Origin: a virus
IMG/VR virus record: IMGVR_UViG_3300042090_001199
Location: 1 to 45,460 of that record
Length of the DNA: 45,460 nucleotides
Direction: 5' to 3' (one strand)
Shown here piece by piece: positions 1,988 through 30,749 of the stretch. Within the stretch, counting starts at the first letter, position 1. Every line of letters begins with the position of its first letter. The position numbers were made by a program, and so were the translations under genes. Under the pieces are notes generated by a model. It searched no databases. It had not been told where the DNA came from and saw nothing but the letters and a program-made list of their open reading frames with translations.

Positions 1988-2007
1988 GGCTTGATTGGAA
2001 AGTCAAG
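1988..2007 (-). promoter_or_regulatory. Conserved promoter/operator motif, site 1 (before dnaB)
   Basis: Read on the minus strand the bases are CTTGACTTTCCAATCAAGCC. They match the window-wide consensus CTTGAC[A/T]-N5-A-[C/T]CAAGTC except for the T of the final GTC. CTTGA and TCAAG form an inverted repeat. The first T of TTGACT lies 40 bases before the dnaB ATG. No convincing -10 hexamer is seen 17 bases downstream. Confidence 0.7.
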
Positions 2008-2018
2008 CCAAAAGGGGG

Positions 2019-3281
2019 TTAGACTCCTGTAGAACCAAAGCCGCCCTCCTTGCGGGTGGTATCTTCCAAGCTGTCCACCAGTTGGAACTCAACGTTGATT
2101 ATGTGTCTAGGAACAATCTGCACCATGCGACATGGTAGCTCAAGATCGGGAGCTGTTTGATCTATCTTGCGCAGAGGAACGATTACCTCTCCCACATAGG
2201 TCCGATCTATGATTCCCACCGAGTTGGCAAGCATATATCCGGTCTTAGATATGGAACTGCGCGGTACCATGTCGAAGTAGTATCCATATGCTGGGGTGAC
2301 CTTAATACCAGTACTGTAGAAGGTGACATCCCCCACCCTCTTATGAACCCCCAGTATGGTAATATCATAGCCCGAATCACTGGCCCGCGCCTTAGAAGGA
2401 GGACACGCATCAGGTCTTGTCTTGGCCCATTTGAACTGCTTGTTCCATCCTCTTGCCCATTCACCCTTTAATACCGCCGGAGTCCATGTGGACCATATGG
2501 CATATAGATCGGCCTTTCTTGATAGATACACCTTGGCATTCTTGTATAGCTTCTCCAAGAAGTCTAAGGCATTGTTGCCACTCCAATATATTCTATAATC
2601 GTCGATGGTACACGGGATACCACAGAAGTCTTTTACCCCCTGTTTGATGAACGGCGAGTAAGACGTGATATCAGCATAGGGACTACGCTTATCATAGGAA
2701 GGGGATGATATACTGCCATCTCCGTCGAAGTAACCACGTATAAAGGCCCACTGAAGATCGTCAGAAGACAGCTTGGGCATCTTGACTATAGCATCTTTCT
2801 TGAGAGACTTGGCCGATGTATCCACTCCAAGCAGTCTACCCGCGTCATCGGTCAGCTCCTTCGAACAGAGTCGTATGCCGACCATATCCTTCCCAGATCG
2901 GAATATAGGCACATCGAAATTGAGGGCCTGCTTGATCCTGTATAGTACATCTACATCCTTTTTGTGGATGATGATCGCTATAGAACCAGTTCTGTGAAAA
3001 GAACCATCGCTGGCGATCCAGCCAAGCAAATATGCCTTGGCTTCACTATCAATAATCTTGAACATACCATCATCCGTATTGTACTTGGCACCCGACCCTT
3101 TCCTGCCACGCCCCTTTAGTGCGCGAGAGCAGTGAAAGCAGATGTATCTCCCATTGTTACGCTTGCGATTGGCCACTGCATCCCTGTGTCGCAACATCTT
3201 GTTTAATACGCACTTGGGCGATAGCTTAAAGTCGCATTCGCATGTAACGAGTTGATGAGAGTTATCTGATAGGTTTGTCAT
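2019..3281 (-). CDS. dut: dUTPase with N-terminal zinc-finger/LAGLIDADG homing endonuclease fusion
   Basis: This is one 420-residue frame with two parts. Residues 1-60 carry a Cys cluster (C14, C16, C24, C48, C51). Residues 83-95 (LLGWIASDGSF) and 179-191 (FIRGYFDGDGSI) are two LAGLIDADG motifs, as in a monomeric homing endonuclease. Residues about 284-420 are a complete dUTPase with all five motifs: DSGYDIT, PRSSIS, ANSVGIIDRTYVGE, RMVQIV and RKEGGFGSTG. dUTPase hydrolyses dUTP to dUMP and keeps uracil out of DNA. No intein splice junction is present: there is no His-Asn before Cys/Ser/Thr and no N-extein. I therefore read it as an end fusion, not an intein. I found no in-frame ATG with a ribosome site near the dUTPase part. 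An AAAGG sequence precedes the ATG at 3281. Confidence 0.88.
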   Translation of the reverse strand: MTNLSDNSHQLVTCECDFKLSPKCVLNKMLRHRDAVANRKRNNGRYICFHCSRALKGRGRKGSGAKYNTDDGMFKIIDSEAKAYLLGWIASDGSFHRTGSIAIIIHKKDVDVLYRIKQALNFDVPIFRSGKDMVGIRLCSKELTDDAGRLLGVDTSAKSLKKDAIVKMPKLSSDDLQWAFIRGYFDGDGSISSPSYDKRSPYADITSYSPFIKQGVKDFCGIPCTIDDYRIYWSGNNALDFLEKLYKNAKVYLSRKADLYAIWSTWTPAVLKGEWARGWNKQFKWAKTRPDACPPSKARASDSGYDITILGVHKRVGDVTFYSTGIKVTPAYGYYFDMVPRSSISKTGYMLANSVGIIDRTYVGEVIVPLRKIDQTAPDLELPCRMVQIVPRHIINVEFQLVDSLEDTTRKEGGFGSTGV

Positions 3282-3302
3282 AGCGCCTTTGGTACGTATG
3301 TA

Positions 3303-3308
3303 TTACAC
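3303..3308 (-). promoter_or_regulatory. GTGTAA element before the endonuclease-dUTPase gene
   Basis: On the minus strand GGTGTAATACATACGTACC lies with its GTGTAA 27 bases before the ATG at 3281. It shares the GTGTAA core, and much of the 18-base context, with the element before the gene at 30701. It is a candidate promoter core; no -35 is evident. Confidence 0.4.
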
Positions 3309-3346
3309 CATCTTTTGCCGTAGTTATACAAGAATCGTCAAGAGTC

Positions 3347-4369
3347 TTACGCCCCACCCTTCTTCGCTATCTTGTAAGTCTTGAATGCCGCTTCGTTGAT
3401 GCTGGTGTAGCCGCCGCACTCCTGACATTGCATCTGGTGCTGCACGGTGCCCGCCGCCGTCACCTTGGTCTTGGATTTTGTCACGTGATCGGAGCCGCAA
3501 TGAGCGCATGTCCACTTGCTGCGACCCTGCACGACGCCCGCATGAGTCTTGGGCTTTACAAACTCGCGCAGCTTGTTCCAGACCTTCTCCAGCAGGACCA
3601 CATCCTTGCCACAATAGTGACACATCTTGGCCATGGCCTCGGGGCAGTGGTGTTCAACGATCTCCTTCCAGAGTCCATAGGTCGTGTGGACCTTCCCGCC
3701 AAACCCAAGATACTTGGCGATATAGTCCAGCTTGTTTGACTGGAAGTAGAAGTAGCGCTTTGCCCACTGGCAGGTGTCCACCGTCTTGTAGTCTGGCATG
3801 GGACGGAGACCATGGAAAATGCAACGAGTGCGGAACCATGGCATGTCGAAGCCGTCGCCATTGTGAGCGACCAGCTCGTCTGCCTCGTTGGCCACCTTCA
3901 GGAACTCGGTCAACATCTGCTTGTCGTCCTGATTCTCGTCCCAGCGAAGGACAGTGACCTTGTCGTCGCCCTCCCACTTGTAGCCTATACAGATGATCTT
4001 TCTCTCCTTGATGATGCTCTCGTGGCCGATGTTAAGCTTGAAGCCGACACCCCACGAGTAGACCACGGTCATGGAGGTCTCAATGTCCCAGAAAAGGCGC
4101 TTCAATCGGACAACCGGAGGCGTTGATGGCCGGGCATAGGAAAACACTCCACCGCCCTTGCGGACCTCTGATATCACCATATCTTTCACGGCCTGATTGA
4201 AAGCGGGGACCGACTGCACGATCCTAGCCGCCCAATCGTACATCTGGGTCTTGCCGACTCCAAGCGTTTCTCCGAGCCAGAACCGGGCCTTCTGCTTGTC
4301 CTCCCCATACATCTTGATGAACCGTTCGATCACTCTATCCGTTAGTTTGGGGTGTGTTAGTTGTGTCAT
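3347..4369 (-). CDS. Stand-alone DEDDy 3'-5' exonuclease with HTH and zinc ribbon
   Basis: The 340-residue protein carries the three proofreading-exonuclease motifs of the DnaQ/PolB superfamily: Exo I FWDIET (D95, E97), Exo II HNGDGFD (N170, D175) and Exo III YCGKD (Y252, D256). The Y-x3-D form makes it DEDDy, similar to the exonuclease part of family B polymerases and to YprB-type nucleases. Residues 1-55 look like a helix-turn-helix. A four-Cys zinc ribbon (C288, C291, C315, C318) lies at the C-terminus. There is no polymerase domain. It probably degrades single-stranded DNA or proofreads for a polymerase encoded elsewhere. A hairpin at 4393-4415 separates it from the upstream nuclease gene, and a GTGTAA element lies 18 bases before its ATG. 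Confidence 0.82.
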   Translation of the reverse strand: MTQLTHPKLTDRVIERFIKMYGEDKQKARFWLGETLGVGKTQMYDWAARIVQSVPAFNQAVKDMVISEVRKGGGVFSYARPSTPPVVRLKRLFWDIETSMTVVYSWGVGFKLNIGHESIIKERKIICIGYKWEGDDKVTVLRWDENQDDKQMLTEFLKVANEADELVAHNGDGFDMPWFRTRCIFHGLRPMPDYKTVDTCQWAKRYFYFQSNKLDYIAKYLGFGGKVHTTYGLWKEIVEHHCPEAMAKMCHYCGKDVVLLEKVWNKLREFVKPKTHAGVVQGRSKWTCAHCGSDHVTKSKTKVTAAGTVQHQMQCQECGGYTSINEAAFKTYKIAKKGGA

Positions 4370-4381
4370 GTTAGAGTGAAT

Positions 4382-4387: not shown

Positions 4388-4392
4388 GGAAA

Positions 4393-4415: not shown

Positions 4416-4445
4416 AGAAAATATTTCGGACGGGACCGGAACAGA

Positions 4446-4865
4446 CTAGAGATCAATGTCATACTTAGATTTGAACCATGCCGGGGACAACGCGTCGAGA
4501 TCGTTGTCAAACACCTCTACAAGCTTGATTCTATTCTGTTCCAGCCACTTGGCTTTGTTATTGTCCCGGTCCATGGCGGCCCCGAACTTGAACCGATTTT
4601 CATGGAAGAAGGCGTTGAAGGAGTGTGTGGCGGAAGGAGAAACCTCGATTGCAATGCGCCGGGTGAAGTTGATGAAGTCCACCCTCATAAGAGTGGACGG
4701 GATGCGGAATTCCATGCATACGACATGTCCTCTCCAATAGGGACGGAGGAATTCCGCCACCTTGGTCTGCGGCTTTGACACGTTGCGTATGTTGTCCCAA
4801 TCAATCAGATACCTTGCTATGTTAACGTTGACCTCAACGCGGGAGTTGAGCTTCTTGAACTTCAC
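4446..4865 (-). CDS. Small PD-(D/E)XK-type nuclease-like protein
   Basis: This 139-residue protein starts at a GTG (4865) that overlaps the recombinase stop (GTGA). The core RVDFINFTRRIAIEVS has the spacing of the D-x(n)-E-x-[S/K] active site of PD-(D/E)XK nucleases. The second half, with D98 near the K of NNKAKWLEQN and the ending VEVFDNDLDAL, recalls Vsr/DUF559-like folds in which a strand follows the active site. Position directly behind the RecA-like gene suggests a repair or recombination role such as a junction or nicking nuclease. The family was judged by pattern only; a hypothetical call is the fallback. Confidence 0.55.
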   Translation of the reverse strand: MKFKKLNSRVEVNVNIARYLIDWDNIRNVSKPQTKVAEFLRPYWRGHVVCMEFRIPSTLMRVDFINFTRRIAIEVSPSATHSFNAFFHENRFKFGAAMDRDNNKAKWLEQNRIKLVEVFDNDLDALSPAWFKSKYDIDL

Positions 4866-6016
4866 TTGCCGGTAATCAGCTTGAGGAATTTCTCATAGAG
4901 AAACGCCGTGATCTTAGGATTGTTCTCAAGCAGCTTGTAGATGTTGTCCCGCCCCCTGATCTTTTCGGGAAGCTCTTCACCCGTCGCCTCCTTGACCTCT
5001 GTTACGAGAGCGGGGGCAATGGTGTACATGGCACCCTTTTCGCTGTCCCTCGTGACCAGCTCCCATTGAATGAGCAGATCGGCAATCTCTCGTTCCACCC
5101 AAACCGAGGTGGCGTTGATGCGTCCGTACTTGATGGGATATCGTATCACGGTGGTGTACTTCTCGTTATTGGACTTGACGATGCGAATCTTGCAGTAGTG
5201 CCCCACGGGCTTGCTGTTGTCATCGTCCGCATTCTCACGAATGACGTCGTCCTTCCAGCGCGGCATGAATTCCAATACCCAGTCGCCCGCGTGTTCAACG
5301 GCGTGCCCACCGGATGAGTTGCCCTGACGCGGGGCCGTAGGAGCGCCCCCGCCTCCACCTGTAGTCACCTTGATGAAGTCTCGCACCTGTGAGATGAACC
5401 ACATGATATGTCCGCGCTTGGCAAGGGCCACACCGGTCTTCTTGAAGAACACCGAGGTGATCACCGCACCACCGGCAACCTGCGCAGCATCTTCATAGGT
5501 CTTTGCCAAATCCGCACGTTTACCCATGGTATCCATGCTGTCGATCATGAAGAAATAACGGACCTTTAGAGGATTGTTGCGAATGAGATCACCAAAGAAG
5601 CTGAACACAAACTCAAACACGTTCGACTCCAGCAGAAGACATGTGCCATCCTTCCATTCCTTGGGATCGGTGGTAAATACAACTCCAGAACGGGCAATCA
5701 CCTCCGGCGAAAGGCGGCCCTCGCTCTTCACATACACGCCCCGGCGCAGCTTGCCCTGATTGACCTTCAGGAAGTGATACATGAAGTCAAGCGTACAGGA
5801 GGTCTTGCCGCCGGTTGTAACGCCCACGGCACGATGGGCACCCGGTTCTAGCCCCCCGTCCATGGCGGCACTCAGAAGCAGACTGGATGCCCGCGTTCTG
5901 TCGGTAATGGTGTCTTCGAAGTTGAAGTGATCTTCCTTGTGCGCGTTCAAGTGCGACAGGGCCTGATCTGACGGAGTGATGACTTTCTCTTCTTCCTTAG
6001 CTGATTGCTTTGCCAT
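4862..6016 (-). CDS. RecA/UvsX-like recombinase
   Basis: The 384-residue ATPase has Walker A GVTTGGKT (G65-T72) and Walker B YFFMIDSMD (D159), the RecA-type order. The glycine-rich, probably DNA-binding loop TTGGGGGAP lies near residues 218-226. RecA-family proteins coat single-stranded DNA and carry out strand exchange in phage recombination-dependent repair and replication. It is shorter and more divergent than bacterial RecA, so a UvsX/Sak4-like phage recombinase is equally possible. Its stop overlaps the small nuclease gene. A near-perfect copy of the conserved motif (6084-6103), buried in the upstream gene, lies 68 bases before its ATG and may drive it separately. Confidence 0.85.
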   Translation of the reverse strand: MAKQSAKEEEKVITPSDQALSHLNAHKEDHFNFEDTITDRTRASSLLLSAAMDGGLEPGAHRAVGVTTGGKTSCTLDFMYHFLKVNQGKLRRGVYVKSEGRLSPEVIARSGVVFTTDPKEWKDGTCLLLESNVFEFVFSFFGDLIRNNPLKVRYFFMIDSMDTMGKRADLAKTYEDAAQVAGGAVITSVFFKKTGVALAKRGHIMWFISQVRDFIKVTTGGGGGAPTAPRQGNSSGGHAVEHAGDWVLEFMPRWKDDVIRENADDDNSKPVGHYCKIRIVKSNNEKYTTVIRYPIKYGRINATSVWVEREIADLLIQWELVTRDSEKGAMYTIAPALVTEVKEATGEELPEKIRGRDNIYKLLENNPKITAFLYEKFLKLITGK

Positions 6017-6019: not shown

Positions 6020-6370
6020 TTAGGTGTTGTATTGATCGGTCAATGCTGATCCCAGCTCGACCCGCTCCATATCCACCATGGGGGACTTGGTTGGTTTGTC
6101 AAGCTGATTCTGAGACGAGGTGAGTTTATAGTACCGCCACGCCGTCTCAAGCTCGTCAGCGCCGCGTGGGGTTTTGAAGAAGGCGAGTGAGTGCATGGTA
6201 TAACCGGGATTGAGTCCCGTCCAGAAGGCTTCATCAGGATACTTGGCCAGAAGATGGTTCAGGTTCTTGACCTCGCGCCCCCACATCACACCCTTGTTTG
6301 GGCCAGTCAGTATCTCCTCTTTGACCAGACGCTTGATCACATCCAGCTTAGTGCGATGCGGCATGCTCAT
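6020..6370 (-). CDS. Unknown 116-residue protein
   Basis: Not recognised. It is a soluble, fairly charged protein whose start overlaps the ClpP-like stop (ATGA) and whose stop is 3 bases before the recombinase gene, so it is part of the same operon. The stretch LDKPTKS near the C-terminus is encoded by the promoter-like motif at 6084-6103, so this part of the reading frame is under double constraint. Confidence 0.75.
   Translation of the reverse strand: MSMPHRTKLDVIKRLVKEEILTGPNKGVMWGREVKNLNHLLAKYPDEAFWTGLNPGYTMHSLAFFKTPRGADELETAWRYYKLTSSQNQLDKPTKSPMVDMERVELGSALTDQYNT
6084..6103 (-). promoter_or_regulatory. Conserved promoter/operator motif, site 2 (inside gene, before recombinase)
   Basis: On the minus strand the bases are CTTGACAAACCAACCAAGTC, a full match to the consensus and 19 of 20 identical to site 7 in the divergent hub. 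It lies within the coding sequence of the 116-residue protein, 68 bases upstream of the recombinase ATG. No clear -10 is seen. Confidence 0.75.
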
Positions 6371-6948: not shown

Positions 6949-8091
6949 TCAGAGTTTGTAAGTTGCAAGATCATGCTGTACCATGCGGTGGACAAGGTCG
7001 GGGAAAGTCACCTTGGGAGCCCAGCCCAGTTCCTGCCGGGCCTTGGTGGAATCGCCCCAGAGAAGCTCGACGTCGGCGGGACGGTAGAACTTGGGATTGA
7101 TGCGCAATACTGTCTTTGGGATATAGGTGTGATGACTACCGGGGAACGGATCGTAAATAGAGCGCGTTTCAGGATCGTCCAACTGGATCATATCCATAAC
7201 ATAGGCTTCCTCATCAGTGCCTTTCTGTGTGCTCCAGAATAGTGTAAGTCCTGCTTCTGCAAACGCCAATTCCACAAACTCCCTTACCGAATGCGTCTCG
7301 CCTGATGCAAGCACATACTCCTGTGGCGATCCCTTCTGATTCAGCATGCGCCATACTCCATCCATGAAGTCCTCAGCGTGTGACCAATCACGTTTTGCAT
7401 CGATGTTGCCAAGCTCAATCGGTTCGAACGGTTTGCCCTCCTTGATTGCCTGTGCTATCCGAGCAACTCCCAGACTGATCTTGCGGGACACGAAGTACGA
7501 TTGCCTACGTTCTGATTCGTGATTGAATAGAATCGCATGGACAATATACATACCATATGACTCCCGATACACCTTACATATCAACTGAGCTGTACACTTG
7601 GATACACCGTAGATTGAACGCGGAGATAGGGGATGTTTCTCGTCCTGTGGATTGTACTTGACATTCCCAAACTGCTCTGATGAACCAGCGCTATATACAT
7701 GACAATGAGGCACATACTCACGAATAGCCTCAAGGATGTGAATAAGGCTCACTGCGTTAGTTTGCATATGAGCTACGGGATTGGCCCAAGAATCCGCGAC
7801 AAAAGTCTGGGCGGCAAAGTTGATGAAGTAGTCTGGCCGTTCTTCGCGAATCAAACGTCTCACTGCTTCGTGGTCGGTTAGATCCGCATCGGCCATCTTG
7901 ACTCTAGGATGATTAAGAACCCCTTCGAGATTCGATAGGATCGCTTGACTGGTACGACGCAATACAATGATCACGTAGTGATCCGTATTCTTGAGAAGGT
8001 ATTCGGTCATGTAACTGCCGTCTTGTCCAGAGGCACCGGTTACAATCACCTTCTTGGTATATTCAAACCCGCCTTTGACGTTGCTCATCAT
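6949..8091 (-). CDS. gmd: GDP-mannose 4,6-dehydratase
   Basis: This extended short-chain dehydrogenase of 380 residues closely follows Gmd. The NAD(P)-binding loop is VTGASGQDGS (17-26), followed by the RR dipeptide after the second strand and NFAAQTFVADSWANP (91-105). The catalytic set is S137/S138-E139 with Y161-x3-K165 (YGVSK), and the Gmd hallmark ESYGMYIVHAILFNHES spans about 177-193. It converts GDP-mannose to GDP-4-keto-6-deoxy-mannose, precursor of fucose, rhamnose, perosamine and colitose. GGAG lies directly before the first ATG, so the second ATG (8088) may be the true start. Downstream use of its product may involve the ColD-like enzyme at 13705-14961. Confidence 0.95.
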   Translation of the reverse strand: MMSNVKGGFEYTKKVIVTGASGQDGSYMTEYLLKNTDHYVIIVLRRTSQAILSNLEGVLNHPRVKMADADLTDHEAVRRLIREERPDYFINFAAQTFVADSWANPVAHMQTNAVSLIHILEAIREYVPHCHVYSAGSSEQFGNVKYNPQDEKHPLSPRSIYGVSKCTAQLICKVYRESYGMYIVHAILFNHESERRQSYFVSRKISLGVARIAQAIKEGKPFEPIELGNIDAKRDWSHAEDFMDGVWRMLNQKGSPQEYVLASGETHSVREFVELAFAEAGLTLFWSTQKGTDEEAYVMDMIQLDDPETRSIYDPFPGSHHTYIPKTVLRINPKFYRPADVELLWGDSTKARQELGWAPKVTFPDLVHRMVQHDLATYKL

Positions 8092-8657
8092 TCTCCTGCG
8101 TTTTTACCCAACACCACCAACGACCATCGTCCAATAGATCCTCGCGCCCGCTCCATTCCCGACTCCCAATCTATCAGCTCGTCCGGGTCGCTCGGAAGCT
8201 TGTCCAAAGCCAGCTGGGAGGCATATTCAACGTCTATCGGATAAATACCCTCGGCAAACCCGGCGTATGAGAGATTGCAATCCGCTGATAGAAACGTCTT
8301 TACATTGTCTCGGTACATCAGCACATCAACAAGCTGAAGACGACCCATGCCGACATCACTGTCATACCACTCCTCGCATATCCTGTGCATACCAAGCTGG
8401 GCAGCCGGAGACGGAATCAGGGGGGTGGCAGTCAAATATCGCTGTCTGTATCCGTGTCCAGCCGTCTCGTGCACAACATGCAACCATTGCCGCCCCGGCC
8501 TGAACCGATAGGATCGTGGGGGATAATCCGACCCAAACGACTTGTAGTCCACTTCAATTCCCAGCATTAGCTGTGGTAATGAAAGCCCAAGGTCGTCAAG
8601 GGGTCTGAACTGCTCTAACCGAAGGGTTGCTTCCTTGCCTGATTTACCTCTTGTCAT
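8088..8657 (-). CDS. Unknown 189-residue protein
   Basis: Not recognised. It has no signal peptide or membrane segment. The word WLHVVHETAGHGYRQRYL (about residues 58-75) is the most conserved-looking stretch and includes two HxxxxH-like histidines, but I cannot assign a metal site. It is the first gene behind conserved motif site 3, whose TTGACA lies 36 bases before this ATG. It overlaps gmd by ATGA, so it probably heads the transcription unit that carries gmd, the ClpP-like protease and the recombination genes. A GAGG sequence 10 bases before the ATG could serve as a ribosome site. Confidence 0.75.
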   Translation of the reverse strand: MTRGKSGKEATLRLEQFRPLDDLGLSLPQLMLGIEVDYKSFGSDYPPRSYRFRPGRQWLHVVHETAGHGYRQRYLTATPLIPSPAAQLGMHRICEEWYDSDVGMGRLQLVDVLMYRDNVKTFLSADCNLSYAGFAEGIYPIDVEYASQLALDKLPSDPDELIDWESGMERARGSIGRWSLVVLGKNAGE

Positions 8658-8674: not shown

Positions 8675-8694
8675 GACTTGGTTGACTTGTCAAG
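8675..8694 (-). promoter_or_regulatory. Conserved promoter/operator motif, site 3
   Basis: The minus-strand sequence CTTGACAAGTCAACCAAGTC is a full consensus match. The first T of TTGACA is exactly 36 bases before the ATG at 8657, which would put a sigma70-type transcription start at or next to the start codon. It abuts the stop codon of the 68-residue gene. Confidence 0.75.
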
Positions 8695-9331: not shown

Positions 9332-12259
9332 TTATCTAACGGGACAAGCTCCCCCTGCACATTCAAGTTCTGTAAGCACTCCATTACCAACGTCATCGTC
9401 CACTGAATCTAGTAGCTTGATCTTGGCCAACATTTCGTTGTATTGATCCTCCGTGATCTCCTGATAAGGTGCTTGCTGGAACCCATGTTTGTCTCTGAGA
9501 AGAAAGCTCACCGATTTGACACTCTTCTCGTAATTATCCTTAAGCCAATCCTTAAGAACGGGAAGCTCTTCCATATCGTAATAGGCTGTGACCGATACAG
9601 CATTGTCAGACCAAATACTTTGGAGCTTGGCCACCATGTCAAGCTGTTTGGTCACCGACATATCCTTGGCGAGGACAGCCCCCTTGGGTGTCTTGCACGG
9701 AAATGAAACCACCACAGTATCACGGTTTTCGGAATTGTCGAAGTTTTTCACATACTCGACTGGATAACCATGCCTGCGACAAACCTCCACGAGCTTGTCA
9801 TTACTGCCCACACGAACACGCCGGATATAAAACTGAGAATAGGCGGGGTGAATACCGGGAGTGGCACCAGCAAGCAAACTAAGGCTACCACTAGGCTTCA
9901 CAGTGGTCAGCTTGATGCTAGCTGGCAATCCACGTTTCTTGCTCCATTCCTTGTCAAACCTGCGCAGCTCAACATAGCAGTCATCAAGCCAATCAATCTT
10001 GTCGAATGACTGACATATGCCCGTTACACCCAAGCCAAGACGCATGTTCTTGTGAACGATTTCCTCTGTTTCTTTGTGCAAAAACGACATAGCACATATG
10101 GCCTTCTGGGTTTTGTAGAGAAGCTTGGCGCAATCAATAAGAACATCCTTTGTCGGAATGTTATTGAGGTAAAGCTCGGAAAGATTACAGCACTCATAAG
10201 ATGCGAGCCCAATTTCTCCGCATGGATTAGCGCCGTTCAGATTGTCCTTGTCTACGGGATAGAGAGAGCTGTCCTTCAACAAGCCGTCCTTAAGACGGCC
10301 ATATCGTTGAGATAATGGAAGATTGAAGAACCCATAAGGTTCTCCCTTTGCGTAGCCGGTCTTCGAATCAATCATATAGCCATTACTCCATATCTCGTCT
10401 GATATATGATCATAGGAATCGGCGTAGATCGTGTTGTTGGACATGGCCCGCCAATTCGGCACATTGCCCAAACTCCAGTTCTTGGCACGAAGATAGAGAT
10501 AATCGTCGGGATCTCCCAATGCGATCTCTGCCGATCTGCGAACATTGCCTGCCACTACAATGGACCCAATGATGTTGCAGATATCCAACGCGTCTACAGA
10601 CCTGAGCTTTTTCTCTTCCCGGCTTACCATGATCTTGGCTATCTTCTGCATACCTTCAATGAGTATCTTGGGGCCAGATGCCGTGCCACCAAATCCCTTA
10701 ATGGGTTCGCCCGCGCCACGAACAAGGATGGTGGAATACGTGAAAGACTTGCCGGTCACATAATAAGCATCCAAAACTTTACCGAGAAGCTTAACCCACC
10801 CAGCCCGGCTATCAGGCACGATGAAGTCGGCATCCTTGGTCCCCTGATGTTCGATCTTAACTCCCGCCTTGATACGGGGCAATTCGTGGACGTCTTCACG
10901 GCGAATACTGAATCCCACTCCACCACCCAACATTAGATTCTCAAACAGAAACAGAAAAGCTTTAGGTTCATTTATAGAACAGAACCAGCAGTTGCCCGTC
11001 AGAATGTTGCCTTCAATGACAAAGCTATGAGTATCAGGAACTTGCGCACAATAAACCTCTTCAAACAGATCAGTCTTCTCCACGCTTACCACCTTAGCGT
11101 AATTCTCATACCGTTCGGAGGGCTCTTCAAGCTTGGACCTGTGATCAGATCGGATCAGTAATATCTCAGGGTTATCGTTCAGGTTGAACGAGATAGACCA
11201 CAACTCTGACGGCTCGCCGCTAAAAGGATTCTCGTCTCGTTCGAGATATGGATCACCAGTACGGAATCCACATACAGCAGCCACATCTTTAGCAAACAAG
11301 AGCTGATCCTTCTTGGCCGAGAAAAGACGCATACTGCCATTCGCCTTGTTTATTGATCCATCAGCAGCAATCCAGCCAGCTAAGAAGCCCATCAGATAAG
11401 ACTTGTTCTCTCGAATGGACGGTAGCTGCTTCCAAGCATTCGGGAAGCCGCCGTACCGAACATGACGAGGATTTTCCGGGTTGGTCCAGCTCACTCTATT
11501 CAGGATGAAGTATTGCTTACACTCGTCATATGTATTATCGATCAAATCGATGAACGACTCATATCCATTGCACGATCCATCACCAACAATCAAGCCGTGT
11601 TGAATGCCCTGTGGACTTAGATACTGACACATGGTCTTAGCTCGTACCACGGGCACTTTGTCTCCTACCCTGAGCCCCTCTGTGGTTGTCTCTGTACGAT
11701 CAGTATTCCCCTTGTTCAATAGCAGCCAACGATGACCGGGGGTAGCAAGCACTTCCCATCGCTTGGACCCATGCGGGTTAGAGAAAGTCACGCGATCAAT
11801 ATGTTGCTGACCAAAGCTTTTGATGGGGGCTTCTACAAATTTACCGTATGCTGTGACCACCTCCACCGTCTTCCCAACAAGGTCGCCAATGGCCTTCCAT
11901 CCATCTCGGGTTAATACCTTCGTGTTGTACTGGAAGCAGTTAAGCAAGCTATTACCGAAGTACTTCTCCACTGTTGGCGTGCCCAACTGCCACAACATAC
12001 GTCCCGCATAGTTGCATCGCAGATTGAAGATGTGGTCAAACAGTCGTTTAGCCTCCTCCTCTGTATACTCTGCACCAACGCGTTGTGCGCCGTTGATGCA
12101 TCGCCCCACTGTCTGATACCATTCTTCGCTGCCGCCGCCTTCAAGTATCCGAGAATAAGTGCGCTTGTAAACAAAATATCCCATTCCGTTGAAACCGAAT
12201 GGGGCGACTTTGTCCTTGTATGAATTAATGAATGCCGGTGAAAGTATGTCAGGAATCAT
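9332..12259 (-). CDS. nrdJ: Class II (adenosylcobalamin) ribonucleotide reductase with intein
   Basis: The 975-residue frame contains an intein at residues 108-423; the spliced protein would be about 659 residues, near the size of monomeric class II reductases. The extein has NSLLN|CWFCSI (redox Cys), NPCGEIGLASYECCNLSE (thiyl-radical Cys in NPCGE and the partner Cys in ECCNL), PSGSLSLLAGATPGIHP, and the C-terminal shuttle pair ECAGGACPVR. It reduces ribonucleotides using coenzyme B12 and works without an oxygen-dependent metal cofactor, so host B12 would be needed. Two upstream elements precede it, a conserved motif (12317-12336) and a GTGTAA (12287-12292). Assignment to the triphosphate reductase branch is by overall pattern. 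Confidence 0.93.
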   Translation of the reverse strand: MIPDILSPAFINSYKDKVAPFGFNGMGYFVYKRTYSRILEGGGSEEWYQTVGRCINGAQRVGAEYTEEEAKRLFDHIFNLRCNYAGRMLWQLGTPTVEKYFGNSLLNCFQYNTKVLTRDGWKAIGDLVGKTVEVVTAYGKFVEAPIKSFGQQHIDRVTFSNPHGSKRWEVLATPGHRWLLLNKGNTDRTETTTEGLRVGDKVPVVRAKTMCQYLSPQGIQHGLIVGDGSCNGYESFIDLIDNTYDECKQYFILNRVSWTNPENPRHVRYGGFPNAWKQLPSIRENKSYLMGFLAGWIAADGSINKANGSMRLFSAKKDQLLFAKDVAAVCGFRTGDPYLERDENPFSGEPSELWSISFNLNDNPEILLIRSDHRSKLEEPSERYENYAKVVSVEKTDLFEEVYCAQVPDTHSFVIEGNILTGNCWFCSINEPKAFLFLFENLMLGGGVGFSIRREDVHELPRIKAGVKIEHQGTKDADFIVPDSRAGWVKLLGKVLDAYYVTGKSFTYSTILVRGAGEPIKGFGGTASGPKILIEGMQKIAKIMVSREEKKLRSVDALDICNIIGSIVVAGNVRRSAEIALGDPDDYLYLRAKNWSLGNVPNWRAMSNNTIYADSYDHISDEIWSNGYMIDSKTGYAKGEPYGFFNLPLSQRYGRLKDGLLKDSSLYPVDKDNLNGANPCGEIGLASYECCNLSELYLNNIPTKDVLIDCAKLLYKTQKAICAMSFLHKETEEIVHKNMRLGLGVTGICQSFDKIDWLDDCYVELRRFDKEWSKKRGLPASIKLTTVKPSGSLSLLAGATPGIHPAYSQFYIRRVRVGSNDKLVEVCRRHGYPVEYVKNFDNSENRDTVVVSFPCKTPKGAVLAKDMSVTKQLDMVAKLQSIWSDNAVSVTAYYDMEELPVLKDWLKDNYEKSVKSVSFLLRDKHGFQQAPYQEITEDQYNEMLAKIKLLDSVDDDVGNGVLTELECAGGACPVR
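10991..11938 (-). mobile_element. Intein with LAGLIDADG endonuclease in the reductase gene
   Basis: The element covers residues 108-423 of the reductase frame (316 residues). It begins with Cys (CFQYNTKVLT, block A) and has the TPGH block B (173-176). Two LAGLIDADG motifs, QHGLIVGDGS (about 220-229) and LMGFLAGWIAADGSI (289-303), give a homing endonuclease. It ends EVYCAQVPDTHSFVIEGN, then ILTGN followed by Cys. The penultimate His of ordinary inteins is Gly here. The +1 Cys of the C-extein is the reductase's redox-active cysteine, so the gene gives active enzyme only after splicing. Confidence 0.92.
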
Positions 12260-12316: not shown

Positions 12317-12336
12317 GACTTGATGATTCAGTCAAG
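12317..12336 (-). promoter_or_regulatory. Conserved promoter/operator motif, site 4 (before nrdJ)
   Basis: On the minus strand CTTGACTGAATCATCAAGTC is a full consensus match with a perfect CTTGA/TCAAG inverted repeat. A GATACT sequence 19 bases behind TTGACT could be a -10. The reductase ATG is 76 bases downstream of TTGACT. Confidence 0.72.
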
Positions 12337-17464: not shown

Positions 17465-18085
17465 TCATGCTCTCCTGAGCACCCACGATGAATGAGTCGT
17501 GCCAATAAGGAGGTTGTTCTCCTGTGCAAACTGGGTTACAGCCCGCCGCACCTGCTCTCCAGAGAACCAGTCGTGTCCCGCAAACAGACCGTCGTCCCTC
17601 ATCTTAGGGTACCATGCCCGCATGTCGGCAAGAACATTGTCATAGGAGTGCCCCGCATCGATAAAGCAGAATTTGATTGACTTGTCGGCAAAGAGTGCGG
17701 CCATCTCTGCGGACTTCCCGACAAGAGCGGCGGTCAACAAGCGGTCACGTCCATTGTGGGCGAGATTCTTGTAGAACTCGGCCAGCATGCATCGCGGGCC
17801 ATGATCCTCAATCCACTTGCGGCTGGTAAGACCGGATGCGTTCATCACCATATCAAGCGAATGGCCGCCATCCCTGCACATCTCATCGATGTCAAACAGG
17901 TCCACGGCGTACAGCTTGATCTTCTTGTTGGACAGTTTGACCCGATCAATCATCGCGGCAATCGACTCGCCCACGAACGATCCCACCTCGACAAAGACAT
18001 CCCCATCCTTGGCTATGTCTACCGCGTGCTGTTGGACATCTTCAAAGTCGGATACTGGATTATCGAGTCCCTTTTCGAACCACAT
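17465..18085 (-). CDS. Class I SAM-dependent methyltransferase (Methyltransf_24-like)
   Basis: The start is set at ATG 18085 (206 residues) because AAGGAG lies 8 bases upstream and the codon forms a TGATG junction with the upstream stop. The SAM loop is VFVEVGSFVGESIAAM (30-45), an acidic strand end is YAVDLFD, and the metal-type motif FIDAGHSYDNVLADMRAWYP is at about 146-165, followed by GLFAGHDW. This matches the cephalosporin-hydroxylase/macrocin O-methyltransferase-like group often found in glycan gene clusters. It probably O-methylates a sugar; the acceptor is unknown. Confidence 0.8.
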   Translation of the reverse strand: MWFEKGLDNPVSDFEDVQQHAVDIAKDGDVFVEVGSFVGESIAAMIDRVKLSNKKIKLYAVDLFDIDEMCRDGGHSLDMVMNASGLTSRKWIEDHGPRCMLAEFYKNLAHNGRDRLLTAALVGKSAEMAALFADKSIKFCFIDAGHSYDNVLADMRAWYPKMRDDGLFAGHDWFSGEQVRRAVTQFAQENNLLIGTTHSSWVLRRA

Positions 18086-18681
18086 CAGAGAAGCTCCTTG
18101 AGATTGGTGACAATACACACCGCATTGGCATTGTTGAAATACCCGGCTGGAATCGGACGATCACTGTGTCCAAACGGAACATTGAAATCCAATGGATCGC
18201 CTTTCACGTATTCGTTTTTCCAGTTGATGCGCCGCATGATCAGATGTTGTATCTCAGGGTGTGACTTCATGTAAGCATCAAGGAATGGATTATATCCGAG
18301 TCCCCATGTTATAAGGTAACTTGATGCATTTGTCAAGACTTTATTGAGGAAGGTGATCGAATCTTGGTCAGATCCATTGCCATATTCCTTGGTCATCATG
18401 TGCTCGATGGTGGAAATGGAGAGTACATTACGACCTGCATAGTCGATGTCTAACGCGTTAAGCTTCTTGGACTTGGGATGAAGATCCGCAAGATCTGCAA
18501 TCTCGTGATTCTCCCTACCATAATAGGGTATTACCGCTCCTACTTCCAGCGTGGTGTCACCGAACTTATCGAGGAACCAGCGGCCAATGGCCACCTCTAT
18601 ACTACGCTCATTCTGGTATGCCTCGTTAAAGAACTCGCGAGCATAACGCAATCTGATATCATTGATCTGGAACTGGTTCAT
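18085..18681 (-). CDS. Methyltransferase-like protein of the glycan operon
   Basis: The 198-residue protein has a Rossmann-like pattern. TTLEVGAVIPYYG (about 43-55) stands where the SAM loop would be, LNALDIDY is an acidic strand end, and NVLSISTIEHMM recalls the post-motif strand of class I methyltransferases. The canonical GxGxG is not present, so this is a weak family call. It overlaps the upstream gene by 23 bases and the downstream methyltransferase by TGATG. Confidence 0.5.
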   Translation of the reverse strand: MNQFQINDIRLRYAREFFNEAYQNERSIEVAIGRWFLDKFGDTTLEVGAVIPYYGRENHEIADLADLHPKSKKLNALDIDYAGRNVLSISTIEHMMTKEYGNGSDQDSITFLNKVLTNASSYLITWGLGYNPFLDAYMKSHPEIQHLIMRRINWKNEYVKGDPLDFNVPFGHSDRPIPAGYFNNANAVCIVTNLKELL

Positions 18682-24966: not shown

Positions 24967-25883
24967 ATGGACAATCCTCCGTACACGTCTATGATTGCTT
25001 TGGCCACTCCCACAGGACTCACCTTGGTCGCCCACGCTTTCTCGTAATGCTTGCGCAACCTACCCTTCATGGTTTGCATTGCGCCGTTGTCCTGCATGTA
25101 GCGGGCGATGAAGTGGGCTACTGACGTAACCGTGGGGGTAATCTCGTTGTACTCTGGAAACAGATCGGGTGGCAACAACTCCTTGCGGGTTGTCATGTCG
25201 TTGCACACAATCGGAATGACTCCAGCCGCCATTGCTTCCAGCACGGTGAGATTCAAACCTTCAACCTTGCCAAGAGACAAAACAAAATCTACGCTGTTAT
25301 ACATGCGGTTCAACTGCTTGTCGTCTAACACGCCAAAATACTCGCCGTATGATGCGTATTCGCCACCGACCAATCCAAGCTGACCGTAGTTGATTCCCAG
25401 TGTGAGAAGCGTGGATACACCCAATGTGAATCTTTTGTTGGGGTCCTGACGTCTACCCACGGAAAGAAAACGGGCATAACGGTCGGGACGTGGTTCGGGC
25501 TTGAACAGCACCGGCTTTATAGGATTGTAGATAACCTGCGAATCCTGCTTGATGTACCGTGTCAGTTGATCCTTAACAAATGCCGAGATACAGGTCACGG
25601 CATGCGCTCGCTTCAGCATCGTGGCAAGCCCCTCAAGGTCATAGTTGGACAGATTGTGCTCTGGAATGTCTAACACGTTGAAGATCACCTTGGCATCCTT
25701 TTTGATCTTTCCGCCATATAGATTGGAAAGAATCTGCTGATAGCCCCCCTCGTCGTTGGAGTACACTATATCGGCCTCGTCTATATGTTCGGCGAGTTGA
25801 TGTCCCAGAGCCACGATACCCTCTTCGATTCTGTCGATCTGGGACCCGTAAAACCTAGAACAGGATTTGGCCCAAAACTTCAC
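24963..25883 (-). CDS. GT4-type glycosyltransferase
   Basis: The 306-residue GT-B enzyme starts at GTG 25883, overlapping the preceding gene (GTGA). The C-terminal half has FLSVGRRQDPNKRF (donor phosphate Arg/Lys, about 140-152), MYNSVDFVLSLGKVEGLNLTVLEAMAAGVIPIVCN with E208 in the EGLxLxxLEAMAAG signature, and a typical helical C-terminus. It is a retaining transferase using an NDP-sugar. It is the second gene of the long glycan operon behind conserved motif site 5. Confidence 0.88.
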   Translation of the reverse strand: MKFWAKSCSRFYGSQIDRIEEGIVALGHQLAEHIDEADIVYSNDEGGYQQILSNLYGGKIKKDAKVIFNVLDIPEHNLSNYDLEGLATMLKRAHAVTCISAFVKDQLTRYIKQDSQVIYNPIKPVLFKPEPRPDRYARFLSVGRRQDPNKRFTLGVSTLLTLGINYGQLGLVGGEYASYGEYFGVLDDKQLNRMYNSVDFVLSLGKVEGLNLTVLEAMAAGVIPIVCNDMTTRKELLPPDLFPEYNEITPTVTSVAHFIARYMQDNGAMQTMKGRLRKHYEKAWATKVSPVGVAKAIIDVYGGLSI

Positions 25884-26086
25884 TGTCCACCATCCTGCTT
25901 CTCGACTTCCAGCCTGTACTGCTCGATGCTGATCTTGCTTGACTCAATGACAAGGGGGCTGTTCGACAAGGCTTGGCTGTTCAATGCCTGCGCTCGTAGA
26001 TAGGCCACGGCTGAATCGATATCGTCGAATATATGCGGTTCCCCACTGACCAATACCTTGAAAACGGTGACGAGATCTTGACTCAT
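25880..26086 (-). CDS. Small unknown protein (68 residues), first gene of glycan operon
   Basis: Not recognised. It is an acidic, soluble protein (FKVLVSGEPHIFDDIDSAVAYLRAQALNS) with a beta-alpha pattern. The TTGACA of motif site 5 lies 36 bases before this ATG, and TTTAAT in between makes a fair -10, so the transcript might begin at or next to the start codon. Everything downstream to 12359 is tightly packed, so this could be the promoter-proximal gene of about 14 kb. Confidence 0.66.
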   Translation of the reverse strand: MSQDLVTVFKVLVSGEPHIFDDIDSAVAYLRAQALNSQALSNSPLVIESSKISIEQYRLEVEKQDGGQ

Positions 26087-26095: not shown

Positions 26096-27685
26096 TTAAA
26101 GCACAATTGATTGCAATGTCAAGTCTTTTCTGTCACCACCGTCCAGTGGTAACACAGCTTGCTCAACCGCTTCCTGAGCCACCTGCTCGACCACCTTCTG
26201 CAAAACGGGTTTGGTGCGATGTTTCTTGTAAACCGACCAGTCTCGGATGTATTCAAGCTTGTCTATAGCGCGGGTGCGGGCAACATAGTCTATGTTTTTC
26301 TCCTGTTCTTTCTGCCACGGCTGTATGACGTTGTACGGGAACGGAATAAGCTGCGGCTCAAGAATGAAGACATTATCGGCTTCCAATCCCTTGAAGCGAT
26401 GCACAGTGCTAAGAATGATTCCGGTTCCCATGTCGTCGGAGAAGATCTTTATAATCTTGGCCAAAACTTCCGATACCAACTCACAGTCGTCTGACAAGAT
26501 GTTGATGATCTGTATCTTCTCCATCATGGTTTGGTACTCATGTCGTTCGGTTATATCCCGGTCGGGGTATTTCTTGTTGAGTTTCTCGACCATGCGTTCG
26601 CGCTTGCGGTCGATGCCGTCGTCCATTTCTTCCACCGTCTTGTCCTGATAGGGTTTGAGAAACGAGGTTAGGCTCGCCCCCAAATCATTGCCGCGCACAA
26701 TGGCCTTCCTGCCCTGTTTGATAAAGTCGAGACACAGCTGTACCAAAGGAAAATTGGTGCGGCAGAGAACCACGTCGCCGTCCCTGACGTTCTTGATTGA
26801 CCCCTCGACCACCACCTTGCCCACCGGGGCATTATCCCGAGCTTCTATCTCCGGCACTATTTTCTTGGCGTGCTTCACCACCTCCAAGGGGCAGCGGTAA
26901 GAGATGGACAGGGGCAGCTCTATCGTGTTAGGCTCAGCAAGGGCAATCTCGAACAACTTGGGATCACAGCCAAGATGTCCGTAGATGGATTGCCGGGGGT
27001 CCCCGATCATTACCAGCCTGCCGCCGGGGTTCAACAGCTTGCGAATGAACGTGTACTGTGCTTGGCAGCAGTCTTGGAATTCATCCACGTAAACGATGTC
27101 GTACCCACGATTCTTAAACGTATGTGTGGCAGGTATATAGATCAGGTCGGTAAAATCAATATCCTTGTGATTTGTCGTCACGTCTCTGAACGTTTCCACT
27201 GCATATGCTGGCTCGTCGTCCCAGTCCTCTATGTCGTACACATCGCAGATTTCCTCAGCGTCCCCATAGGTTGACTTCAACGTCAACCTCATGAGATCCA
27301 CTATCTTGCGCACCCTGCCAAAAAACGCCACCCTCTCGTATGGAGGAACCTTCCACCGATTCTCCTTGCTAAGCCTTTGAATCGTGTCGAACACCTTGTC
27401 CTGTTCCACCTCCTTAAACGGATAAAGCTGTTGTACAACGGCATACCCTTGAGAATGTACCGTGGAAGCCTTGACAGAATAGGGCAGTTTTTGCTTTAAG
27501 GTGTTGGCTATGCTCTTGTTAAACGCCAAAAACAAAACCTGTTTGGTGCTGGAAACATACCGCAGGCTTTCCAGTGCGGTTGTAGTCTTGCCAGACCCCG
27601 CCACGGCGTTGATAATCAAGTGACCGTTTGAGTTGCGAATATAGTCAAAAATTGCCTGCTGATATTTGGACGGAATCATACCCAT
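26096..27685 (-). CDS. UvrD/PcrA-like SF1 DNA helicase
   Basis: ATG 27685 is chosen (529 residues); the longer frame upstream is low-complexity hub sequence. A second ATG at 27679 is also possible. Motifs in order are NAVAGSGKTT (Walker A, about 26-35), VYVDEFQDCCQAQ (Walker B), MIGDPRQSIYGHLG (motif III), LSISYRCP (IV), STVHRFKGLEADNVFIL (V) and VARTRAIDKLEYI (VI). It is an SF1A helicase that translocates 3'-5' on single-stranded DNA and works in repair or replication. Its last codons carry motif site 5. It is driven from the divergent hub, with motif site 6 placed 36 bases before the ATG. Confidence 0.92.
   Translation of the reverse strand: MGMIPSKYQQAIFDYIRNSNGHLIINAVAGSGKTTTALESLRYVSSTKQVLFLAFNKSIANTLKQKLPYSVKASTVHSQGYAVVQQLYPFKEVEQDKVFDTIQRLSKENRWKVPPYERVAFFGRVRKIVDLMRLTLKSTYGDAEEICDVYDIEDWDDEPAYAVETFRDVTTNHKDIDFTDLIYIPATHTFKNRGYDIVYVDEFQDCCQAQYTFIRKLLNPGGRLVMIGDPRQSIYGHLGCDPKLFEIALAEPNTIELPLSISYRCPLEVVKHAKKIVPEIEARDNAPVGKVVVEGSIKNVRDGDVVLCRTNFPLVQLCLDFIKQGRKAIVRGNDLGASLTSFLKPYQDKTVEEMDDGIDRKRERMVEKLNKKYPDRDITERHEYQTMMEKIQIINILSDDCELVSEVLAKIIKIFSDDMGTGIILSTVHRFKGLEADNVFILEPQLIPFPYNVIQPWQKEQEKNIDYVARTRAIDKLEYIRDWSVYKKHRTKPVLQKVVEQVAQEAVEQAVLPLDGGDRKDLTLQSIVL
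26104..26123 (-). promoter_or_regulatory. Conserved promoter/operator motif, site 5 (before glycan operon)
   Basis: On the minus strand the bases are CTTGACATTGCAATCAATTG; the last half-site departs from CAAGTC (CAATTG). TTTAAT lies 16 bases behind TTGACA, a near-standard promoter. The first T is 36 bases before the ATG at 26086. It overlaps the end of the helicase coding sequence. Confidence 0.72.
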
Positions 27686-27702
27686 GAATATAAATGATGA
27701 TA

Positions 27703-27722
27703 GACTTGATGGGTAAGTCAAG
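27703..27722 (-). promoter_or_regulatory. Conserved promoter/operator motif, site 6 (before UvrD-like gene)
   Basis: On the minus strand CTTGACTTACCCATCAAGTC is a full consensus match with a perfect CTTGA/TCAAG inverted repeat. The first T of TTGACT is 36 bases before the ATG at 27685. The -10 area is AT-rich (CATTTATATTC), and there is no ribosome-binding sequence. Confidence 0.75.
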
Positions 27723-27748
27723 AAAAATACGCTGTTAAAAAAAATAAG

Positions 27749-27778
27749 CTTGACAAACCAACCAAGTGTGTATATAAT
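27749..27778 (+). promoter_or_regulatory. Perfect sigma70-type promoter over conserved motif, site 7
   Basis: CTTGACAAACCAACCAAGTG (27749-27768) is a consensus match. TTGACA at 27750-27755 is followed by exactly 17 bases and TATAAT at 27773-27778, an ideal housekeeping promoter. The predicted start is near 27785. Transcription would run into the GCGA-repeat and hairpin region rather than directly into a gene, since the first clear rightward gene begins at 28242. Confidence 0.85.
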
Positions 27779-27782
27779 GCGA

Positions 27783-27945
27783 GTGAAGCGAGTGAGAGCG
27801 CAGCGAGTCCCAGCGGTAGCAGGGGACGACGCGAAGCGATGCGCGAGCGAGCGAAACGAGCTTATATGGATCAAAAGCCACGCTTGGGAGAATACGCGAG
27901 AGGAAAAGATAACCCGAACGAGCGGAACAACGTGAAGCGAGTGAG
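27783..27945. repeat. Direct repeat GTGAAGCGAGTGAG in the hub
   Basis: The 14 bases GTGAAGCGAGTGAG occur at 27783-27796 and 27932-27945, about 149 bases apart, within a longer purine-rich stretch of GCGA/GAGC words. They could be iteron-like or part of an RNA. Confidence 0.55.
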
Positions 27946-28001
27946 GGTGAAGTGGGAGAATAAACGCCGGGATTACACGTGTATCGATTCACACCTTCTA
28001 C

Positions 28002-28060
28002 CGCATTCGGCTGCGCCTCATTTGGTGCCTTCGGCACTGAGGACTCGCATACGCTCGTCC
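28002..28060. other. Cluster of hairpins in the hub
   Basis: CGCA-TTCGGC-TGCG (28002-28015) is one small hairpin. CCTCA (28016-28020) pairs with TGAGG (28038-28042) and GTGCC (28025-28029) with GGCAC (28033-28037) around a TTC loop. AGGAC (28040-28044) can instead pair with GTCCT, so the structures at 28016-28042 and from 28040 onward compete. No poly-T follows, so these are not simple terminators. Confidence 0.6.
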
Positions 28061-28203
28061 TATCCTCTTTTCGAAAGATGGGTGGTGTCTTATACACGAT
28101 AGATCGATACCCGTCCAACCATCTACCACTTGGTCACCATGTCAAGGTTTTTCTGGCGCTTCATGGTAGAAGCCGTGATGTTGGTTATGCTGGCGCAAAT
28201 AAG

Positions 28204-28223
28204 CTTGACAATTCAACCAAGTC
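28204..28223 (+). promoter_or_regulatory. Conserved promoter/operator motif, site 8 (before rightward operon)
   Basis: The plus-strand sequence CTTGACAATTCAACCAAGTC is a full consensus match. The first T of TTGACA lies 37 bases before the ATG at 28242. The region between has ATGATG at the -10 distance and no ribosome-binding sequence. Confidence 0.75.
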
Positions 28224-28241
28224 ACTCATGATGGTGTTCAT

Positions 28242-28634
28242 ATGACGGTTCAAGACGTGGTAAACCAGCTGATTATACGGTTCTGTGAGAAGGACGTGTT
28301 CTGTTTCGAGGAGATAGATGCTATCATCACCGACAAGAGCGTTAGCAAGGACAAGGAACTCATTGTGCTTCATGCTCTAAAGTACATGGAAGAGAACGGG
28401 TTAATCGTCAAGATTGACAAGGACAAATGGGTGCTTAGCAGACCAATCACCAGCATAGGTCAGGATGTGGGTTTGTCTATACAGACCTGTATACTCATCA
28501 AGGATACGATCATAGGCTACTACAGAGCCAACAACATGCCTTATGAGAACATCGACGTGTTTAACATACACGAGGGGCATATTCAAACCCTGCTCAGAAT
28601 CGTAAACGACGCTTTGGATAATCAGAAAATCTAA
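28242..28634 (+). CDS. Small winged-helix-like protein, first rightward gene
   Basis: In this 130-residue protein the first 70 residues have the helix-turn-helix-strand-strand composition of a winged helix: CFEEIDAIITDKSVSKDKEL, then ALKYMEENGLIVKIDKDKWVLSRP, where the last part looks like the wing. The C-terminal half is helical. As the first gene behind motif site 8 in the divergent hub it could be a regulator of the phage, but no DNA target is shown. Not matched to a named family. Confidence 0.6.
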   Translation: MTVQDVVNQLIIRFCEKDVFCFEEIDAIITDKSVSKDKELIVLHALKYMEENGLIVKIDKDKWVLSRPITSIGQDVGLSIQTCILIKDTIIGYYRANNMPYENIDVFNIHEGHIQTLLRIVNDALDNQKI

Positions 28635-28638
28635 TACC

Positions 28639-30092: not shown

Positions 30093-30505
30093 TGCCCGTA
30101 TTCGAATTCCAGTCTGAAGACGGCGAGATCATCTCGGTTCTGGTCCGCAACGACGAACCAGACGAAGCTCGTCATACACAGACGCAAAACGGCAAGGTAT
30201 ACAAGCGTGTTTATGCCGCGCCCCTTGCCGCCAAGGATACCCAGATACGTGATGCCAGCCAAAGTGACTTTGACAGGATGGTGACCGACAAAAACATCAC
30301 TGTCGGCGACGCATGGCAGATTGCGAAGGACCTGTCAGATGCACGCGCACAGAAACACGGGGGTGTAGATCCGGTGAAAGAAAAGTTCTACAAGGATTAC
30401 GAAAAGAAAACGGGGGGCAAACACATCGACGTGAAGAAGCGCGAGGCCATGGAAAAGGCCAAGCGGGTCATGGAGGCCATGGGGGTGGATATCAAGGCTG
30501 TTTAG
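30092..30505 (+). CDS. Unknown 137-residue charged protein
   Basis: The protein starts MPVFEFQSEDGEIISVLVR, a beta hairpin reminiscent of FmdB-type zinc ribbons but without the Cys residues. It continues as a long charged helical region (VKEKFYKDYEKKTGGKHIDV, KREAMEKAKRVMEAMG). The family is not assigned. It is a soluble cytoplasmic protein, last of a short rightward run. Confidence 0.65.
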   Translation: MPVFEFQSEDGEIISVLVRNDEPDEARHTQTQNGKVYKRVYAAPLAAKDTQIRDASQSDFDRMVTDKNITVGDAWQIAKDLSDARAQKHGGVDPVKEKFYKDYEKKTGGKHIDVKKREAMEKAKRVMEAMGVDIKAV

Positions 30506-30701
30506 CCCTGACCTGTTCCAGCCATCGCTCCCTGTGGCCGCCCATCACCCAATTCCACATTGCAAACTGCAAGCCCACGTCGTGACCCATCTTCTCGCTA
30601 AGCAACCACTTATGCACGTCAATAGCCTGCTTTTCAAGCAGGTGAAGCTGATACAGGCTGCTTTGTTCGATTGGAAAAGGTTCTCCGTTCGGTGTACTCA
30701 T
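30492..30701 (-). CDS. Small leftward gene (69 residues)
   Basis: This is the only convincing leftward gene inside the right arm. The translation LYQLHLLEKQAIDVHKWLLSEKMGHDVGLQFAMWNWVMGG reads like a real protein, with a KWLLSEKxGxDVGxxxAxxxW pattern that I recall from short phage and bacterial proteins. A GTGTAA element lies 18 bases upstream of its ATG. It fills the gap between two rightward genes and overlaps the end of the upstream one by 14 bases. Confidence 0.68.
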   Translation of the reverse strand: MSTPNGEPFPIEQSSLYQLHLLEKQAIDVHKWLLSEKMGHDVGLQFAMWNWVMGGHRERWLEQVRAKQP

Positions 30702-30713
30702 GGTACATATACT

Positions 30714-30719
30714 TTACAC
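30714..30719 (-). promoter_or_regulatory. GTGTAA element before the leftward 69-residue gene
   Basis: The minus-strand sequence GGTGTAAAGTATATGTACC places GTGTAA 18 bases before the ATG at 30701. It matches the element at 3303-3308 at most positions over the 18 bases from GTGTAA to the closing TACC. Confidence 0.42.
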
Positions 30720-30729
30720 CGGATTTTAG

Positions 30730-30749
30730 CTTGACATTGCGATCAAGTC
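30730..30749 (+). promoter_or_regulatory. Conserved promoter/operator motif, site 9 (before SSB-like gene)
   Basis: The plus-strand sequence CTTGACATTGCGATCAAGTC is a full consensus match with a perfect CTTGA/TCAAG inverted repeat. It lies 92 bases before the ATG at 30823, divergent from the GTGTAA element of the leftward gene. A TATAAC sequence nearer the gene (about 30785) is a possible second -10. Confidence 0.72.

Follow-up and report, generated by a model that had tools for sequence, protein, structure and literature searches.

We analysed the complete IMG/VR record IMGVR_UViG_3300042090_001199 (45,460 bases; hereafter the window), in which a 20-bp word, CTTGACW-N5-AYCAAGTC, recurs on both strands ahead of operons that include dnaB, a UvsX-like recombinase, nrdJ, a UvrD-like helicase, an SSB-like gene and a glycan operon. 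Our interpretation, to which we assign a probability of about 0.6, is that these words are sigma70-type middle (or delayed-early) promoters fused to the operator of one dimeric regulator, which is more likely a repressor. One shared regulator probably switches these operons together, because the inverted-repeat site overlaps the polymerase site at all of them. The record is classed as linear and is probably a fragment, about 95% of it is coding (5% of the contig is non-coding), and its source is probably a large uncultured phage.

The dyad word and its promoters

A first-pass annotation of the window had listed nine sites, and all of its coordinates and strands proved correct. Six of the nine match the word exactly; 1988(-), ending in AAGCC, and 27749(+), ending in AAGTG, carry one mismatch each, and 26104(-), ending in CAATTG, is the poorest of the nine with two. 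Throughout the window the word has 6 exact copies and 10 copies at no more than one mismatch, and no exact copy was found in 100 dinucleotide shuffles of the window. Allowing three mismatches gave 25 matches against 3.9 ± 2.1 expected from shuffles, and the reversed pattern had no match even at one mismatch. A matrix built from the nine sites gave leave-one-out scores of 14.8 to 29.9. When it was scanned against randomised sequence, as the annotation had suggested, 12 places scored above 18 compared with 0.07 in order-2 Markov sequence. Two sites beyond the original list, 18318(-) and 28127(-), each with one mismatch, bring the full set to 11. The candidate 14395(+) was rejected as a family member, its right half being broken and its position antisense within a gene.

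The symmetry of the word is best described by an 18-bp core, CTTGRY-N6-RYCAAG, which matches 11 places in the window compared with 0.05 expected; this set of matches includes 9626, within the nrdJ coding sequence, and lacks 26104. The base pairs C1-G18, T2-A17, T3-A16 and G4-C15 are kept in 10 to 11 of the 11 sites. The inverted repeat CTTGA/TCAAG that had been annotated holds for its outer four pairs, but the fifth, A5-T14, is kept in only 6 of 11 sites, the remaining five reading CCAAG. Positions 8-10 and 12 of the word are free to vary, whereas A13 and C15-A17 are invariant, and the spacing of TTGAC and CAAG peaks sharply, with 13 occurrences at N8 and 0 to 5 at other spacings. The sites therefore have the symmetric half-sites, the fixed spacing and the excess over chance expected of an operator for a dimer.

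The left half-site includes the −35 hexamer, which reads TTGACW at all 11 sites, as had been claimed for the original nine, so that the dyad covers roughly −37 to −20. A −10 element lies about 16-17 bp downstream, as in promoters of the sigma70 type: alignment positions 25, 28 and 29 are conserved as A/T, A and T, and the −10 matches after the sites total 44 of 66, compared with 28.6 ± 2.8 at random positions. Individual −10 elements mostly have three to five of six matches (they are weak or off-spacing at 1988, 6084, 8675 and 28127), and 27749 is a full-consensus promoter, TTGACA-N17-TATAAT.

Placement relative to genes is equally regular. At eight of the 11 sites a gene on the same strand starts no more than 100 nt downstream (P about 1e-8), and 8 of 11 are entirely non-coding. 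An ATG follows 18-19 nt past the word at 8675, 26104, 27703 and 28204, and the genes behind these four sites are probably leaderless, because the ATG falls where transcription is expected to begin; the same spacing places the start of the UvrD-like gene probably at 27685. The dnaB ATG lies 22 nt past its word. The earlier gene assignments hold overall, with two qualifications: 6084 and 18318 fall within upstream genes, and 27749 opens a non-coding region of about 450 nt, referred to below as the hub. The sites, with the open reading frames (ORFs) that they precede, are as follows.

1988-2007, minus: dyad promoter before dnaB (452-1966); CTTGACTTTCCAATCAAGCC, one mismatch
6084-6103, minus: dyad promoter before the UvsX-like recombinase (4862-6016); exact; inside ORF 6020-6370, start 68 nt downstream
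8675-8694, minus: dyad promoter before ORF 8088-8657 and the gmd/Clp operon; exact; probably leaderless ATG at 18 nt
12317-12336, minus: dyad promoter before nrdJ (9332-12259); exact; start 58 nt downstream
18318-18337, minus: additional dyad promoter inside ORF 18085-18681; TTGACA-N17-TATAAC, one mismatch
26104-26123, minus: dyad promoter before the glycan operon, first ORF 25880-26086; two mismatches; probably leaderless ATG at 18 nt
27703-27722, minus: dyad promoter before the UvrD-like helicase; exact; probable start 27685, probably leaderless
27749-27778, plus: dyad promoter reading into the non-coding hub; TTGACA-N17-TATAAT, one mismatch
28127-28146, minus: additional dyad site in the hub, with no gene directly downstream; one mismatch
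28204-28232, plus: dyad promoter before ORF 28242; exact; TTGACA-N16-CATGAT; probably leaderless ATG at 19 nt
30730-30758, plus: dyad promoter before the SSB-like gene (30823-31500); exact

Related contigs and a second promoter class

An exact-word scan of IMG/VR matched at least 116 stretches, nearly all of them single and by estimate at about chance level. Among the matches listed, only two are related to the window: L101, an 8-kb fragment that is nearly identical, and L019, which belongs to a 33-kb contig. At the protein level, UvrD, UvsX, DnaB and the ORF 28242 product recovered few relatives, a scan with nrdJ recovered 49, none useful for the motif, and scans of genome contigs gave no relative and no host or prophage context. 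The most informative relative is G051, a 205,168-bp contig (of which L178 is part) that shows synteny across the entire window, with protein identities of 27-67%; the L019 contig has G051-like genes.

In G051 a degenerate site, CTTGACCACCTGACCAAGGA, precedes dnaB, ATTGACACGCCCACCAATCT precedes the orthologous glycan operon, CTTGACATCACGTTCAAGAC lies about 18 nt ahead of the ATG of the ORF 28242 ortholog, and CTTGACACCGCGTTAAAGAC precedes the SSB-like ortholog. Conservation of the CAAGTC half in related phages had been put forward as a check, and in G051 YCAA(G) is mostly kept but the final TC is not. Among 51 CTTGAC/ATTGAC promoter-like sites in G051, CAA is correctly placed in 5; a further one, at 115110, was missed by the filter. 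The enrichment of CAA at G051 promoters orthologous to those of the window is modest (Fisher P 0.008). Given that the other CTTGAC promoters of G051 mostly lack the second half, the CAAG half appears to be an element in its own right that goes with this set of genes.

The L019 contig carries an exact copy, CTTGACATTTCGATCAAGTCACTCATGATGG, which has CAAGTCACTCATGATGG in common with 28204 and precedes the ortholog of G051 72772-73239; the promoter of the latter carries the dyad CTTGACATATTGATCAATAT. In both contigs the fourth gene of this dyad-headed operon encodes a sigma-like protein: L019:3813-4493(-) has a Sigma70_r2 match and G051 74693-75370(+) a weak Sigma70_r4_2 match. Another sigma-like protein is encoded elsewhere in G051, at 59310-59927(-).

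As had been annotated, the tail module lacks the word; its best match, at 42716, has three mismatches and a score of 10.5. A different promoter class, AAC-N13-[CG]GTGTAA, is present instead. G051 (stretches L179-L189) has 16 copies at this exact spacing compared with 0-1 at other spacings, many of them near structural genes, and the window has three compared with 0.12 expected. The shape resembles that of promoters read by extracytoplasmic function (ECF) sigma factors. A phage sigma factor possibly reads these promoters, and the sigma-like proteins described above would be the presumed candidates.

3303-3325, minus: AAC-N13-[CG]GTGTAA copy, by pattern match
35843-35876: hairpin terminator directly ahead of the tail module, overlapped by the next feature, an arrangement also seen in G051
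35861-35883, plus: late-type promoter AAC-N13-GGTGTAA before the tail module, a contrasting class outside the dyad family
40153-40175, plus: AAC-N13-[CG]GTGTAA copy, by pattern match

We consider it possible, though tentatively, that these two classes belong to a new phage transcription programme with two or more promoter classes, in which a middle class with an inverted-repeat operator in the −35 region drives many leaderless operons, one of them encoding a sigma-like protein, and that sigma factor in turn reads a late, ECF-like AAC-N13-[CG]GTGTAA class. What is known of large uncultured phages is mostly their gene content. A regulon defined by sequence and kept at orthologous promoters in G051, together with a second class of promoter and a sigma-like gene, would provide a framework, open to experimental test, for the entire transcription programme of a phage that has no isolate. 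The motifs also allow fragments of this phage genome to be recognised.

Mode of control and known systems

The first-pass annotation had interpreted the sites as a regulon of promoters with an operator or activator site. A promoter family with an extra element is well borne out by placement, −10 elements, ATG spacing, conservation ahead of orthologous genes in G051 and the lack of the second half at other CTTGAC promoters there; the operator or activator role and the early or middle timing are more tentative. In the mechanism that we envisage, host polymerase of the sigma70 type would use the promoters through the TTGACW −35 and a −10 resembling xATnAT some 16-17 bp further on. The regulator, a dimeric DNA-binding protein that the phage itself most likely encodes, would bind CTTGRY-N6-RYCAAG over the −35 and the first half of the spacer and would jointly switch the replication, nucleotide, UvrD, SSB and glycan operons. 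Occupation of the dyad would block polymerase, repression being the simplest mode. Assignment to a middle or delayed-early class would fit the dyad promoter that heads the sigma-like operon in the relatives and the use of AAC-N13-[CG]GTGTAA by the tail genes. Binding, its sign, the timing and the identity of the regulator are what we infer.

Several observations weigh against this proposal. The inverted repeat is imperfect, because C6 and A13 never pair. Neither an HTH_3 nor a Peptidase_S24 protein turned up in the window, in G051 or in the L019 contig. The G051 sites are degenerate, the SSB site reading TTAAAG, and the right half is lost at the G051 promoter of ORF 8088. The Fisher test is small, comparing 3/5 with 3/47 sites. 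In 73 more distant glycosyltransferase-linked contigs the motif is absent and there is no N8 spacing peak. The middle timing is inferred from gene content only. Finally, the weak −10 elements fit activation too, and the sequence does not separate repression from activation.

Since most −10 elements are weak, activation is the main alternative: a phage activator seated on the dyad (−37 to −20) would aid host polymerase at poor −10 elements, in a functional analogue of the T4 middle promoters. Elements such as CATGAT, CATCAT and CATGGT at most sites are in favour of this, as is a gene set resembling the T4 middle genes, which cover replication, recombination, nucleotide metabolism and late-switch factors (PMC2988021). 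T4 middle promoters likewise carry a phage-specific element near −30 at such genes, but there the MotA box replaces the −35 and an excellent −10 is needed (PMC2988021), whereas the present sites keep a good TTGACW −35 everywhere, have mostly weak −10 elements (three to five of six matches) and carry an inverted repeat. Identity with the T4 design was therefore rejected, as the T4 type has no −35 and requires a strong −10. Moreover, 27749 is already a full-consensus promoter, and at 16-17 bp the spacing gives no hint of a stretched MerR-type spacer. On balance we consider activation unlikely.

A regulator of the host, for example one for stress or the cell cycle, might instead bind the dyad and wire the phage operons to the state of the host. 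The contig is a fragment without an assigned host, and the sequences examined yielded no dedicated phage repressor. Nevertheless, the site differs from one relative to another in the manner of phage-specific operators, the genome-contig scans gave no host or prophage context, and no known host box has been shown to match, so that we regard this possibility as clearly less probable than activation. It is very improbable that the words arose simply by duplication of ordinary strong promoters inside the phage, with a CAAG half that reflects mere shared ancestry and binds no protein. In favour of this, 27742-27767 and 28197-28222 have 92% identity over 26 nt and, because of that identity, likely represent a recent duplication. 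Against it, the sites otherwise share little beyond the dyad and the −10, the word varies at some positions and is invariant at others, and in G051 (about 50% protein identity) the CAAG half persists at orthologous positions but is missing from the other CTTGAC promoters.

Returning to an operator-promoter fusion, the nearest described layout, judged by analogy, is the stoperator system of the Cluster A mycobacteriophage L5, in which one phage regulator acts at many dispersed intergenic sites of fixed orientation to transcription. The L5 consensus, GGTGG(c/a)TGTCAAG (PMC5712189), includes TGTCAAG, the reverse complement of CTTGACA. In L5 an operator also overlaps the early promoter Pleft, and beyond this promoter lies a non-coding transcribed region of about 500 bp (PMC5712189), comparable in layout to the hub. 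Each L5 site is an asymmetric 13-mer to which a monomer binds (PMC9283540), whereas those described here form an inverted repeat always placed on the −35. Identity with the stoperators was rejected: the asymmetric 13-bp GGTGGMTGTCAAG had no exact match and 7 matches at one or two mismatches, none of them at the dyad promoters. No L5-like repressor was identified, a negative that covers HTH_3 and Peptidase_S24 proteins in three records, two or more of them fragments, and does not extend to a search for Gp71 itself.

The operators of P1 C1 are dispersed and overlap the −35 regions of many lytic promoters, and the conserved sites of phiC31 are inverted repeats; both phages are temperate. The present sites share the dispersed placement on −35 regions and, with phiC31, the inverted repeat. 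They differ in sequence, and no tyrosine integrase was found in G051; the PF00589 search was negative in the window, G051 and G007, and it covered neither serine integrases nor partition systems.

The hub, ORF 28242 and neighbouring genes

Two features lie between and beside the divergent operons.

27780-28203, no strand: non-coding hub between the divergent operons, with GTGAAGCGAGTGAG-like repeats
28242-28634, plus: ORF of 130 aa, first gene to the right of the hub; predicted N-terminal winged helix, weak regulator candidate

The hub may serve as an origin or give rise to a non-coding transcript. Its RNA fold was no better than that of shuffles, Rfam and tRNA searches of it gave no match, and GC skew gave no clear origin signal there. 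The ORF 28242 product was modelled with an N-terminal winged helix at moderate confidence (pLDDT 80.9, pTM 0.50), and it is on this model a weak candidate for the regulator that would bind the dyad. A structural search with the model gave no significant match, and Pfam and PHROGs searches assigned no family. The gene is kept beside the hub in G051 and in L215, which belongs to a divergent 205-kb contig. There, at L215:7640-7660(-), CTTGACAGAATTGACAAGGCCCATATAAT lies in the hub beside the ORF 28242 homolog; to judge from its sequence it may be related to the dyad promoters, though it is single. Five TTGAC-N6-RYCAAG matches in the same contig were rejected because they fall inside genes, in tRNA-like sequence or outside any promoter context.

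ORF 30823-31500 had no family match, and the name SSB-like is that of the first-pass annotation. The nrdJ gene, 9332-12259(-), encodes about 340 extra residues with an Intein_splicing signal below the curated cut-off. In ORF 2019-3281(-) a LAGLIDADG/endonuclease-like part is joined to a dUTPase, possibly as an intein or a fusion. The gene block formed by the glycosyltransferase at 28639 and the genes at 30092, 31830, 33734 and 34948 is common to dozens of large phage contigs (L190-L263).

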